The notes below the pieces were generated by a model that made no database searches, was not told the origin of the DNA, and worked only from the letters and a program-made list of their open reading frames with translations. Shown here in pieces: positions 47,422-51,632 of a stretch of DNA of 64,000 nucleotides (within the stretch, counting starts at the first letter, position 1; each line of letters opens with the position of its first letter). The stretch is from Eubacteriaceae bacterium (lineage in GTDB: Bacteria; Bacillota; Clostridia; Eubacteriales; Anaerofustaceae). The stretch covers positions 1 to 64,000 of the forward strand of contig JAFZLL010000058.1 in the NCBI GenBank assembly GCA_017551505.1, in the 5' to 3' direction. The position numbers and the translations under genes were made by a program.

Positions 47422-48369
47422 ATGAAAAAAACCGAATTGTATATCCCCTCTGCCGATAATAAAACGCAAATACATACCATCATCTGGGACCCGGAGGTTG
47501 AAGATGTGAAAGCCGTCGTTCAGCTCGTTCACGGCATGTCGGAATACATTGACCGTTACAATGATTTTGCCGTTTATCTTGCCGGAAAAGGGTACGGTGT
47601 GATTGGCCATGACCATCTCGGTCACGGAAAGTCATTGACGGATCCATCAAGGCTCGGTTTTATCAGCGAGAAAGATGGTCATGAGATCCTGCTCAAAGAT
47701 ATCTCAGCCGTCAGTCATGTTGCTGAAGAAAGATGGCCCGGGAAGAAGCGTATCCTTCTTGGCCACAGCATGGGTTCTTTCATAGTACGCCGCTACGTTG
47801 CGCTCCATTCAGAGGAGCTCGACGGCGCAGTCTTCATGGGTACAGGATGGGTCTCCGGAGCCGCCAGCGGCCTTGGAGCATCCATCGCAAGACGCGCGAT
47901 AAAGAAGAACGGAGCTTTCGCAAAGAGTCCTCTGCTGACGCAGATGGTGTTCGGCAGCAACAACAAACCTTTTGAACCGGCACGCACCCCCATGGACTGG
48001 CTATCACGCAACGAGGCCAACGTTGACCGATATATAGCAGATCCTCTATGCGGATTTGAGTTTACCAGCGGTGCTTATCTGGATTTCTTCAGGATACTTC
48101 AGCATCTCAGTCGGGGCGACGATGAACAGAATATCCGCAAGGACCTTCCGGTACTTATAATCTCCGGCGAGAATGACCCTGTCGGAGGAGCAAAGAGCTG
48201 CCCGACTGTGCTTAAACACTACGAGAAAGCGGGCCTCAAAGACGTCACGCTCAAGCTATTCCACGACGACCGCCATGAGATACTGAACGAGCTCGACCGC
48301 GATATAGTATTCCAGTATATTTCCGATTGGTTCGGCAGGGTAATAGACGGAGATCAGCCCATGTCATGA
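47422..48369 (+). CDS. Alpha/beta hydrolase, lysophospholipase/monoacylglycerol-lipase type
   Basis: The 315-residue product has the serine-hydrolase fold: VVQLVHGMSEYIDRYNDFAV (oxyanion HG), GHDHLGHGKS, the nucleophile elbow ILLGHSMGSFIVRRYV (Ser near 117), SGENDPVGG with the acid and HDDRHEILNELD with the catalytic His. This set is typical of bacterial monoacylglycerol lipases. It has no signal peptide, so it acts in the cytoplasm or at the membrane. It is a single-gene unit with its own terminator. Confidence 0.92.
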   Translation: MKKTELYIPSADNKTQIHTIIWDPEVEDVKAVVQLVHGMSEYIDRYNDFAVYLAGKGYGVIGHDHLGHGKSLTDPSRLGFISEKDGHEILLKDISAVSHVAEERWPGKKRILLGHSMGSFIVRRYVALHSEELDGAVFMGTGWVSGAASGLGASIARRAIKKNGAFAKSPLLTQMVFGSNNKPFEPARTPMDWLSRNEANVDRYIADPLCGFEFTSGAYLDFFRILQHLSRGDDEQNIRKDLPVLIISGENDPVGGAKSCPTVLKHYEKAGLKDVTLKLFHDDRHEILNELDRDIVFQYISDWFGRVIDGDQPMS

Positions 48370-48430: not shown

Positions 48431-48460
48431 AGATGGGAGCAGTTTGCTCCCATCTTTTAT
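48431..48460 (+). terminator. Rho-independent terminator of the hydrolase gene
   Basis: AGATGGGAGCA (48431-48441) pairs perfectly with TGCTCCCATCT (48445-48455) around a three-base loop, followed by TTTTATT. Confidence 0.88.
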
Positions 48461-48731
48461 TGATCCTTCAGGACCCGCTCTACGGGTTCGGGATGTCCCG
48501 GCAATGAATAAGCCCGAGGATCATGCAGCTCCGGCATATTTCCCGATGAGCGGCAAAAGCATTCAGGGTCCAGGCATCATTACGGTGAAAAACGCATCAT
48601 AACTTATTATTTCCAGTAACGGATCCGCACAGCTTATCATCAAAAACGATGCATTCACAGGCATGGATTCTTATAACGAGCATATGACATGAACCATTGA
48701 TCCGTCAGACTTCATCTGTTGAAAAATATTA

Positions 48732-48761
48732 TTGACATCCTTATGAAAACGATAGTATAGT
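48732..48761 (+). promoter_or_regulatory. mgtA: SigmaA-type promoter of the mgtA leader
   Basis: TTGACA at 48732-48737 and TATAGT at 48756-48761 are 18 bases apart, 35 bases before the leader-peptide ATG. Confidence 0.75.
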
Positions 48762-48796
48762 GTGTATGAAAAAAGAAGAAAGAGAGGTGGTAGCTA

Positions 48797-48892
48797 ATGT
48801 GTAGTCAGGAACAAACAGGCGACTTTACGGGTAGCGATGGTTCTTCGGACGATCCTTTGGGTACCGCCAAAGTTTCTTCCGCGAATCGTTAA
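48797..48892 (+). CDS. Acidic leader peptide upstream of the magnesium P-type ATPase, 31 aa
   Basis: A 31-codon frame begins at an ATG with a strong GAGGTGG ribosome-binding site eight bases upstream. The peptide has an acidic, Gly/Ser-rich centre (GDFTGSDGSSDDPLGTAKV) ending in Asn-Arg. It lies between a good promoter and a terminator 17 bases after its stop. In enteric bacteria, acidic/proline leader peptides before mgtA destabilise ribosomes in low magnesium and so let transcription continue. The same logic would fit here. The frame may be conserved, which I cannot check. Confidence 0.65.
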   Translation: MCSQEQTGDFTGSDGSSDDPLGTAKVSSANR

Positions 48893-48954
48893 TAACTGCC
48901 TGTAAAGACCGCTTAATCGGTAAAAAATCTCCTAACTGATTAAGAGGTTTTTTT
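48815..48954 (+). promoter_or_regulatory. mgtA: Transcription attenuator before mgtA
   Basis: A terminator is formed by CCGCTTAATCGGT (48909-48921) and ACTGATTAAGAGG (48935-48947), followed by seven T residues. Inside the leader frame, ACAGGC (48815-48820) and CTTTACGGG (48823-48831) can each pair with parts of GCCTGTAAAG (48898-48907), just before the terminator. A further hairpin, CTTTGG/CCAAAG, lies near 48855-48872. Alternative pairings controlled by ribosome position are plausible. Confidence 0.65.
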
Positions 48955-48995
48955 CGTGTGTACTTTTTTGTTCGAATGCACATCTAGGGGAAAAC

Positions 48996-51632
48996 ATGAA
49001 AAAGCAGAAAAAAAAGGAACTGCAGATTATTGCTGAAAAGCAGAAAAAGCTGGAAAACAATCTAAGGAAAGACAGCCTGCAGACTGTTGAACGGCTGCTC
49101 GGCAAATATGAGACCGACTATACCGGTCTGACCTTGGAAGACGTAGAGGAAAAAGCGGATGAATTCGGCAAGAATACTATTGAAGAAAAAGAAAATCATC
49201 CTGTCATCAACCGTATCAAGGAAGCAGTCATCAATCCGTTCAATATCGTTCTGATTGCTGTCGCGATCATTACCCTGATAACAGACGTCATCATTCCGGA
49301 AAGACCAGACTTTTCGACTTTTGTCCTGGTAAGCGCCGCAGTGATCATTTCAGGGGTCATATCTTTCTCACAGCAGGCAAAGAGCGACAACGCCGCGAGA
49401 CAGTTGAAGAATATGATCTCCAATAAGATCGACGTCATCAGGGAAGGGAAAGTAACGGAGATAACCGTTGAGGAAGTCGTTCCCGGGGATATCGTAAAAC
49501 TGGCCAGCGGTGATATGATCCCTGCCGATGTCAGATTTATTGAGGCAAAAGACTTGTTTATCGATCAGGCGGCTCTTACCGGTGAATCTGTACCTGTAGA
49601 GAAGTATGCGACGGCCACAAGATGCGAAAACATTACCGATATTGCAGATATCGGTTTCATGGGAACAGACGTCGTTTCAGGCTCAGCTCTCGCTCTGGTC
49701 TTAACCACGGGGTCCAACACCTATTTCGGGAACATGGCAAAATCCCTTGAAGGAATAAATCAGCAGAACAGCTTTGAACAGGGTGTCAATTCCATCTCAA
49801 TGCTGCTGATACGGTTCATGGGTATTCTGCTGCCGGTAATCCTGGTCATTAATCTGTTCACAAAAAACGATATTCAGGAATCGATACTGTTCGCCGTTAC
49901 CATTGCCGTAGGACTTACTCCCGAAATGCTGCCGGTGATAATGACCTCGACATTGGCAAAGGGAGCAGTCGCCATGTCGAAGAAGAAGACAGTTGTCAAA
50001 AAGCTGTCCGCCATACAGACATTCGGGCAGATGGATCTGCTGTGTACGGATAAAACAGGGACTCTGACCGAAGATCAGGTCGTTCTTGAAAAGTATATGG
50101 ATCCGGAAGGACACGAAAGTGAAAGGATACTTCGGCATTCCTTCCTCAACAGCTACTATCAAACCGGGCTTAAAAACCTGATCGACGTTGCGATCATTGC
50201 CAGAGCTGAAAAACAGGGATTGAACTATCTCAAAACGGAATATACCCGAATAGACGAGATCCCGTTTGATTTCGTGCGCCGCAGGATGAGCGTCGTATTG
50301 CAGGATTCCAAAGGGAAAAAACAGCTCATCACCAAAGGTGCGGTGGATGAGACCCTGGAATGCTGCAAGTATATGGAAAGCAGCGAGGGGATAGTCGAAC
50401 TGACCGAAGAACGCAGAAAAGCCGCTTATGACATATATGAAAAGTACAACCAGGACGGCCTGCGGATACTTGCTGTGGCTCAGAAAAACGACATCCTTGA
50501 TATTGAGACCTTCAAAGTATCAGATGAGTCGGATATGGTGCTTTTAGGCTTTATAGGCTTCCTGGATCCGCCGAAAGAAAGCGCAAAGCAGGCTATTGAG
50601 GCGTTACAGATGCATGGAGTTGAAACTGTCGTTCTGACAGGTGATTCTCAGGGCGTCGCAATTAATGTCTGCGAAAAGGTCGGGATCGATCCTTCCAATG
50701 CCATCGACGGCATGCAGATCGATAATTATTCGGACGAACAGTTGAAGGGCATGCTTGAAAACTGCCATCTGCTGTCCAAACTGTCACCCGTACAGAAACA
50801 GAGAGTAGTAAGACTGTTCCAGGAAAACGGACATACTGTCGGATATCTGGGTGACGGTATAAATGACTCCCCTGCCCTGAAACAGGCCGACGTCGGGATC
50901 TCTGTCGATACGGCAGTCGATATCGCAAAAGAGACAGCGGATATCATCCTTCTGGAAAAGGATCTTATGGTATTGGAAGAAGGTGTGGTCAACGGCCGCA
51001 AGACTTTCACAAATGTCCTGAAATACATCAAGATGGCCACCAGCGGAAACTTCGGAAATGCATTATCGGTCATCATCGCATCCTTGTTCCTGCCGTTCCT
51101 GCCTTTGCTTCCGATCCATATCCTGTTGCAGAACCTGCTGAACGATCTTGCACAGATTGGAATGCCGTTTGACAACGTGGATGAAGACTATATCCAGAAA
51201 CCGAAGAAGTGGGATACCAACGACATAAAGAAATTTATGTTCGTGTTCGGCCCGATATCGACCGTTCTGGATGTCTGTTGTTTCCTGATCCTGTGGTTCG
51301 TATTCGAATACAATACACTTGAACTGAGCAACTATTTCCAGTCAGGATGGTTCGTATTCGGAATACTGTCGCAGACACTTATCATCCATGCGATACGTAC
51401 TGACAAAATACCTTTTGTATATTCCAAATCATCGCCGGAGCTGATGATCTCGACCGGAGCTGTCGTTCTGTTGACACTGACTATCACATTCACGAAAATA
51501 GCACCGCTTTTCCAGTTGAGCATGCTGCCGGCCAGATACCTGATCTATCTGCTGGTACTGCTGATCATGTATGTGCTGGCTATCGGCGTGTACAAGCGGA
51601 TCTACCGGAAAAATACCGGCACATGGCTGTAA
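48996..51632 (+). CDS. mgtA: Magnesium-translocating P-type ATPase (MgtA/MgtB type)
   Basis: MgtA imports Mg2+ across the plasma membrane at the cost of ATP. The 878-residue product has an N-terminal lysine-rich cytosolic helix, then NPFNIVLIAVAIITLITDV, the actuator loop DQAALTGESVPVEKY, the phosphorylation site LLCTDKTGTLTED (Asp near 351), the nucleotide domain (KGAVDETLECC), VVLTGDSQGVA and the hinge GYLGDGINDSPALKQADVGIS. A C-terminal membrane domain with VNPF-like NLLNDLAQIGMPFDNVD follows. IAVGLTPEMLPVI is the ion-site helix of the type III-B pumps. AGGGGA lies before the ATG. It sits behind a leader peptide and attenuator. Confidence 0.94.
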   Translation: MKKQKKKELQIIAEKQKKLENNLRKDSLQTVERLLGKYETDYTGLTLEDVEEKADEFGKNTIEEKENHPVINRIKEAVINPFNIVLIAVAIITLITDVIIPERPDFSTFVLVSAAVIISGVISFSQQAKSDNAARQLKNMISNKIDVIREGKVTEITVEEVVPGDIVKLASGDMIPADVRFIEAKDLFIDQAALTGESVPVEKYATATRCENITDIADIGFMGTDVVSGSALALVLTTGSNTYFGNMAKSLEGINQQNSFEQGVNSISMLLIRFMGILLPVILVINLFTKNDIQESILFAVTIAVGLTPEMLPVIMTSTLAKGAVAMSKKKTVVKKLSAIQTFGQMDLLCTDKTGTLTEDQVVLEKYMDPEGHESERILRHSFLNSYYQTGLKNLIDVAIIARAEKQGLNYLKTEYTRIDEIPFDFVRRRMSVVLQDSKGKKQLITKGAVDETLECCKYMESSEGIVELTEERRKAAYDIYEKYNQDGLRILAVAQKNDILDIETFKVSDESDMVLLGFIGFLDPPKESAKQAIEALQMHGVETVVLTGDSQGVAINVCEKVGIDPSNAIDGMQIDNYSDEQLKGMLENCHLLSKLSPVQKQRVVRLFQENGHTVGYLGDGINDSPALKQADVGISVDTAVDIAKETADIILLEKDLMVLEEGVVNGRKTFTNVLKYIKMATSGNFGNALSVIIASLFLPFLPLLPIHILLQNLLNDLAQIGMPFDNVDEDYIQKPKKWDTNDIKKFMFVFGPISTVLDVCCFLILWFVFEYNTLELSNYFQSGWFVFGILSQTLIIHAIRTDKIPFVYSKSSPELMISTGAVVLLTLTITFTKIAPLFQLSMLPARYLIYLLVLLIMYVLAIGVYKRIYRKNTGTWL

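Follow-up and report, generated by a model that had tools for sequence, protein, structure and literature searches.

A Putative Translation-Controlled Attenuator ahead of mgtA in a Eubacteriaceae Bacterium, and Acidic Leader Frames before Mg2+ Importer Genes in Its Relatives

1. Introduction

Attenuators of the trp and ilv type combine a leader frame, overlapping helices and an intrinsic terminator, and in these systems the finished peptide leads to termination of transcription. The mgtA leader analysed here carries the same three components, but differs from trp/ilv-type attenuators in that its frame lacks a run of codons for a single amino acid and in that the controlled gene encodes a metal pump.

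In enterobacteria, complete translation of the MgtL leader stops transcription, and drop-off of the ribosome, through intrinsic ribosome destabilization, permits transcription of mgtA (PMC11282234). Like MgtL, the present leader has a short frame upstream of mgtA that contains acidic and proline codons, and the predicted direction of control is the same (PMC11282234). On the other hand, MgtL acts through Rho-dependent termination, whereas the leader described here has an intrinsic terminator instead, and, unlike in MgtL, its own ribosome-binding site is predicted by folding to be the antiterminator. In Salmonella, the mgtQ-mgtB leader joins an acidic frame to the alternative helices 1:2, 2:3 and 3:4 (PMC8092293). 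MgtQ is a peptide of 8 residues, Asp2 and Glu5 among them, and acts by making the mgtB ribosome-binding site accessible (PMC8092293), whereas the present leader would control a terminator.

The M-box riboswitch (ykoK, RF00380) also controls Mg2+ importer genes; it is absent from the DNA and from the genome considered here, unlike in the relatives that bear it. Moreover, a motif ahead of mgtE in Thioalkalivibrio has been presented as a riboswitch candidate (PMC11109978), and the part of PMC13009471 drawn on here makes no mention of mgtE. In a search of open-access full texts, no description of an acidic leader before an Mg2+ importer gene of Bacillota was found.

The DNA under study, hereafter the window, is a stretch of 64,000 nucleotides from contig JAFZLL010000058.1 of a Eubacteriaceae bacterium. 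An earlier note, made from its letters, had proposed that an acidic leader peptide and an attenuator control its mgtA gene.

2. Layout of the mgtA Locus

The following elements make up the locus:

48732..48761, + strand: sigma-70-like promoter TTGACA-18-TATAGT, 11 of 12 consensus matches
48797..48892, + strand: leader frame, 31 codons plus TAA, peptide MCSQEQTGDFTGSDGSSDDPLGTAKVSSANR
48907..48954, + strand: intrinsic terminator GACCGCTTAATCGGT / ACTGATTAAGAGG, then seven T, -14.5 kcal/mol
48996..51632, + strand: mgtA, Mg2+-translocating P-type ATPase of 878 residues (NCBIfam TIGR01524, NF011702)

Promoter, 31-codon frame and seven-T terminator all lie ahead of mgtA where the earlier note had placed them. 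Of 1000 dinucleotide-shuffled versions of 48456-48796, 2 reach a promoter score of 11/12, and transcription would start near 48768. The frame extends from the ATG at 48797 to the TAA at 48890-48892, and this ATG is the first start possible, since an in-frame TAG is located at 48791-48793. A frame of 20-60 codons with a 6-base ribosome-site match appears in 4 of 1000 shuffles of 48762-48995. The terminator comprises a stem (48907-48947) and a tract of seven T (48948-48954), and its energy is equalled by none of 200 shuffles. The naming of the downstream gene in the earlier note was also correct, as the protein reaches 1079 bits against TIGR01524 (cut-off 611) and 1037 bits, above the cut-off, against NF011702.

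The gene upstream of the mgtA region is hydrolase-like and ends at 48369. Behind it, a strong terminator-like hairpin is present at 48431-48455, so mgtA probably heads a transcription unit of its own. Elsewhere in the genome of the window there is one weak CorA match, under the family cut-off, and no match to MgtE.

3. The Leader Frame and Its Peptide

Upstream of its Mg2+ transporter gene, the window has a short frame served by a separate ribosome-binding site, and the peptide contains 5 Asp/Glu and 2 Lys/Arg. Its acidic and proline positions are E5, D9, D14, D18, D19 and P20, and therefore within the first 30 residues, the range in which acidic motifs count according to the part of the E. 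coli EttA work drawn on here (PMC11282234). While MgtL has an EPDP motif at its start, the window peptide has neither such a start nor Glu/Asp at position 2; its second residue is Cys, and Asp-Asp-Pro stands at codons 18-20. The window frame is thus an atypical member of the class, with Cys second and the acidic motif late. From the earlier reading as an acidic leader with an attenuator, the frame, the attenuator and the Mg2+ ATPase gene are retained, whereas the peptide itself departs from the type in these two respects.

The same source bears on the late position of the motif. In E. coli, an acidic motif shifted 20 residues inward lost most of its EttA dependence and had no significant effect, and EE or DE by itself was without EttA effect (PMC11282234). 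The Asp-Asp-Pro of the window is therefore near the far edge of the positions effective in that work, which weighs against drop-off at this site and against Mg2+ as the deciding signal. As regards its sequence context, the alignment score of SSDDPLGT with the core of the DDDPLG group of leaders (see Section 5) is beaten or equalled by 2 of 2000 shuffled window peptides.

4. Folds of the Leader RNA and the Predicted Switch

The whole window leader folds better than its shuffles, with a z of -3.2 and 1 of 200 shuffles folding equally well. The segments involved are as follows:

48785..48792, + strand: segment 1, the leader's ribosome-binding site AGGTGGTA, with segment 2 and the terminator 5' arm as alternative partners
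48862..48868, + strand: segment 2, TACCGCC, partner of the leader's ribosome-binding site in helix P1, by complementarity
48823..48834, + strand: 5' arm of hairpin H1, beginning with CTTTACGGG, by folding
48896..48907, + strand: 3' arm of hairpin H1, ending with GCCTGTAAAG and masked by a ribosome at the stop codon, by folding
48908..48914, + strand: ACCGCTT in the terminator 5' arm, pairing with segment 1 in the antiterminator fold, by folding
48848..48862, + strand: codons Asp18-Asp19-Pro20-Leu21-Gly22, the proposed site of drop-off or pausing

The earlier note had pointed to overlapping alternative pairings, and both ACAGGC (48815-48820) and CTTTACGGG (48823-48831) are indeed complementary to GCCTGTAAAG (48898-48907). 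The second of these pairings survives folding as part of the long hairpin H1, with -20.8 kcal/mol and 1 of 300 shuffles as good, but the first does not, as the probability of ACAGGC:GCCTGT never exceeds 0.08 in the modelled states. What had been overlooked are two further possible pairings, those of the leader's ribosome-binding site with the terminator 5' arm and with the codons behind Asp-Asp-Pro-Leu. The pairing of this site with the 3' part of the frame amounts to -20.0 kcal/mol, with a z of -2.0, and 7 of 100 shuffles do as well.

Two folds of almost equal energy result, the terminator fold with -57.3 and the antiterminator fold with -56.4 kcal/mol, and the gap of 0.9 kcal/mol compares with a mean of 5.4 kcal/mol when the body of the frame is shuffled (10 of 300 shuffles give a gap as small). 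In the antiterminator fold, H1 adjoins the helix 48785-48791:48908-48914, and GAGG and the U-tract are bound by AAAAAATCTC from the terminator loop. This loop (48921-48932) holds AAAAAATCTCC, complementary to GAGG plus the U-tract, which is unusual for a terminator loop.

The position of the ribosome has a strong effect on the modelled pairing. With RNA polymerase at 48930, the probability of antiterminator pairing is 0.98 when no ribosome is present and 0.97 when a ribosome is paused at Asp-Asp-Pro. Once the ribosome stands at the stop codon, this probability drops to 0.07 and P1 forms instead, with 0.92. Of 300 shuffles, 3 show a shift as large as the 0.91 that separates the state without a ribosome from that with one at the stop codon. 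These fold tests of the switch were devised with the folds already known. An initiating ribosome gives 0.00 and, sitting on the binding site, favours the terminator, so antitermination requires that this site be free.

At equilibrium, the full-length RNA has a terminator probability of 0.82 to 1.00 in every modelled state. This value, at least 0.82 throughout, is what would be expected if a plain terminator simply lowered mgtA expression next to an unselected short frame, with no control by translation. We regard this explanation as improbable, given that frame, terminator and antiterminator are all rare in shuffles and that the window peptide resembles conserved leaders. If transcription is instead controlled by the ribosome, the terminator being favoured in full-length RNA means that the switch must be kinetic, the antiterminator forming first and lasting.

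The reading that we favour, with a probability of about 0.6, is that of a ribosome-controlled transcription attenuator in which mgtA is transcribed when the ribosome fails to finish the acidic leader peptide. Under ample Mg2+ the frame would be fully translated, and a ribosome at the stop codon would mask the H1 3' arm; P1 could then form between the leader's ribosome-binding site and the codons behind Asp-Asp-Pro-Leu, leaving the terminator 5' arm free, and transcription would stop at 48954. Under low Mg2+, the ribosome would drop off or pause at Asp18-Asp19-Pro20 and H1 would form, placing the leader's ribosome-binding site beside the terminator 5' arm, so that the two could pair before the terminator 3' arm is synthesised. 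The U-tract would be captured by AAAAAATCTC of the terminator loop and mgtA would be transcribed.

The computed results are the parts of the locus and how far they depart from chance, the pair of near-equal folds, and the shift under ribosome masking. The window frame is presumed to be translated, with ribosomes dropping off at Asp-Asp-Pro. Low Mg2+ is the putative signal on account of the gene controlled, the occurrence of acidic leaders before mgtE as well (see Section 5) and the example of enterobacterial MgtL and MgtQ.

5. Acidic Leader Frames ahead of Mg2+ Importer Genes in Relatives

Upstream regions of mgtA were collected through TIGR01524 searches, a protein search and fetched regions, giving 160 upstreams, 145 of them nonredundant and of at least 250 bases. 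One rule was used for all gene families: an ATG preceded by at least 6 bases matching the anti-Shine-Dalgarno partner, opening a frame of 8-60 codons between -400 and -50. By this rule, 57 of the 145 mgtA upstreams have a frame (shuffle mean 4.4), 41 of them with Asp or Glu in second position (shuffle mean 0.4, maximum 2 in 50 shuffle sets); the window leader is among the 57 and outside the 41. For comparison, among 135 long genes of the same loci whose ribosome sites are as good, 11 have Asp/Glu in this position.

The mgtE upstreams behave similarly, with a frame in 20 of 67, 18 of them acidic-second. Starts such as MDSGPLP, MDSDPLP and MDPESLP are found among the acidic mgtE leaders, which include those of L180, L184, L186, L189, L191, L195, L260, L282 and others; MgtE is unrelated to MgtA. 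The rule yields no frame in 48 Ca-ATPase family upstreams, and in 30 corA upstreams, a weaker control because many of the matches lie below the family cut-off, it yields one frame and no acidic-second frame. For acidic-second frames, the Fisher test gives 2.5e-6 for mgtA against Ca-ATPase and 3.1e-5 for mgtE against Ca-ATPase. Leaders of this kind thus recur before other P-type ATPase genes, a check proposed in the earlier note, in the form of acidic frames ahead of mgtA (41/145), and ahead of mgtE as well (18/67).

The acidic residues cluster at the beginning of these peptides. Their share is 28 percent at residues 2-7 and 9 percent later in 66 mgtA leaders, a set (66-69 depending on the test) hand-picked for an acidic frame or for group membership with 5-base ribosome-site matches allowed, and 23 versus 6 percent in 16 mgtE leaders. 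An acidic-Pro-Leu or acidic-Leu-Pro motif is present in 20 of the 66 mgtA leaders (shuffle mean 3.1) and in 5 of 16 mgtE leaders (0.5), this count using 16 of the 18 acidic mgtE leaders, and related leaders not being independent of one another. The presence of acidic leaders before two unrelated kinds of Mg2+ importer points to a shared sensing of low Mg2+ like that of enterics.

6. Codon-Level Selection and Kinship

Codon-level conservation, also suggested as a check, was assessed from single-base codon differences in nine groups of alignable leaders, to none of which the window belongs. In frame 0 there are 173 synonymous and 155 non-synonymous differences, where 58 synonymous are expected and the pairs compared are not independent, against 86/313 in frame +1 (95 expected) and 59/338 in frame +2 (86 expected). 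The strongest group, MExQSC...DDDPLG with 7 leaders, shows 84 synonymous and 33 non-synonymous differences, with 20 synonymous expected. The related leader frames are under codon-level selection. Loss of the frame with retention of the RNA fold, which would have told against the earlier note, is the reverse of what is seen, as the leaders of relatives keep their frames and much of the RNA differs between lineages.

As for the window itself, the DNA of its whole leader has matches only in its own genome among 61 genomes, and none in plasmids. Its MgtA groups, with a support of 100, with its nearest relatives, those of L028, L122 and L123, at about 70 percent identity; MEDPLS leaders are present at two of these three loci. 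The MgtA from its own genus (L016) is 52 percent identical and placed elsewhere in the tree; at that locus a different leader, MDSGPRSRH..., is located at 504-720, with two terminator-like hairpins, one within the frame and one behind it. One step further out, no such frame was seen upstream of the MgtA relatives L029, L030, L032 and L056, which indicates that leaders come and go. The MgtA proteins that accompany DDDPLG leaders occupy another part of the tree than that of the window, so the likeness of its DDPLG to these leaders possibly arose by convergence or exchange, and shared descent is not claimed. Among further MgtA relatives, L035 and L036, with 51-54 percent identity, are on contigs labelled Candidatus Saccharibacteria.

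7. The RNA Plan in the Leaders of Relatives

In the leaders of relatives, the ribosome-binding site and start codon pair with the 3' part of their own frame, in a helix of the P1 type, beyond chance. The mean z is -2.41 for 69 mgtA leaders and -3.33 for 18 mgtE leaders, with z below -2 in 44/69 and 13/18, respectively. Compared with the 3' parts of other leaders, the own 3' part is in the best 5 percent for 38/69 mgtA and 12/18 mgtE leaders. Given that the idea of P1 was derived from the folds of 14 leaders, it is relevant that outside those 14 z is below -2 in at least 40 of 65 mgtA and in 5 of 8 mgtE leaders. At L186, an mgtE locus, the start region and the 3' end of the frame form 17 consecutive base pairs.

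A more elaborate plan is found in 16 leaders of two groups, A (L128, L130-L132, L134, L135, L138, L141-L143) and C (L136, L140, L145, L147, L149, L151). In these leaders AAGCCGCC, ahead of mgtA, can pair either with an in-frame GGCGGCT or with GGAGGCTT, and the latter contains the ribosome-binding site of mgtA. This corresponds to the plan 1:2, 2:3, 3:4 of Salmonella mgtQ-mgtB, as described in the part of that work referred to here (PMC8092293). Paired cells number 110/128 for the first helix and 75/80 for the second, in a count where the third segment of L147 and L149 is shifted by one base, and two-sided changes are seen at three base pairs in the first helix and at one in the second. In both groups, the mgtA ribosome-binding site is concealed by a hairpin that ends in a T-run right before the ATG (mostly GGAGGCTTTTTATATG) and that may act on translation and transcription both.

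Two candidate generalisations were rejected. Helix 2:3 as a general rule finds only 11/61 mgtA and 5/14 mgtE leaders in the best 5 of 100 shuffles. Likewise, masking of the frame as a general means of hiding the mgtA ribosome-binding site gives a mean change in the accessibility of that site of +0.012, with cases of either sign, over 65 of 66 leaders (the one longer than 420 bases left out). A helix like H1 does not reach significance in the DDDPLG leaders, and the RNA switch of the window is therefore not confirmed by any relative.

8. M-box and Other Riboswitches

The earlier note had recognised no known riboswitch class such as the M-box, and this holds under a covariance search with all 4227 Rfam families, which gave no match in the whole window; the genome of the window has no match to RF00380 either. 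A riboswitch or metal-sensing RNA fold of an undescribed kind, with the frame incidental, would suit the unusually good fold of the leader (z -3.2) and its two near-equal structures. This we consider very unlikely, because no Rfam family matches the window or 20 loci with leaders of window-related groups, and because the frames of relatives are codon-selected while much of the RNA varies between lineages. Near other mgtA genes, Rfam marks a NiCo riboswitch (L004, 5425-5521), a uup RNA (L042, 1077-1124) and a piece of a group II intron (L039, 243-475).

In relatives, M-box and acidic frame can occur together. RF00380 was found in all of 20 other loci scanned, which had been picked since their upstreams looked M-box-like, and 19 of these 20 M-box loci also have an acidic frame in the interval from the M-box to mgtA, L099 being the exception. 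At L096 and L097 the leader behind the M-box is MQETTDAIDDDDWIY, with four Asp in a row. Four genomes have two mgtA copies each, one with an M-box and the other behind a DDDPLG leader, in this order L099/L148 (G884), L098/L156 (G958), L096/L157 (G972) and L097/L158 (G951), the M-box being identified by Rfam in L096 and L099 and by pattern only in L097 and L098.

These loci bear on what an attenuator of this kind would sense. A true translation-controlled attenuator could respond to general translation trouble rather than to Mg2+, with slow initiation, antibiotics or loss of EF-P or of an ABC-F protein as triggers. The switch would need merely that the ribosome fails before the stop codon, and there are known cases of regulatory uORFs responding to drugs that target the ribosome, as reported in the portion of PMC12121999 drawn on here. 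Nevertheless, acidic frames are found before the genes of two Mg2+ importer families that are unrelated to each other, but not before corA or Ca-ATPase genes, and they stand behind the M-box in nearly all of the M-box loci, which makes a signal of this general kind rather unlikely and favours an attenuator that responds to low Mg2+.

9. Conclusions

The mgtA leader of the window can be viewed as a variant of the MgtL type of leader that uses an intrinsic terminator. The comparison with relatives strengthens the interpretation at the level of the class and the folding analysis makes the mechanism specific, Mg2+ sensing by the window leader being putative. Acidic nascent peptides probably form a class of Mg2+ sensors that is widespread in Bacillota and serves the two unrelated importer families MgtA and MgtE, often in series with the M-box. 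The class would have a common RNA plan, with pairing between the 3' end of the frame and the leader's ribosome-binding site, its outputs ranging from intrinsic termination, as in the window, to hiding of the ribosome-binding site of the pump gene. If so, Mg2+ sensing through ribosome stability would be not an enterobacterial speciality but a general device, present in bacteria mostly thought to rely on the M-box RNA. Natural acidic sequences (DDDPLG, EVPLSC, DDYHSR and MDSGPLP) would become available for probing the destabilisation of ribosomes by nascent chains, and some leaders would place an RNA sensor and a peptide sensor in series before one gene.
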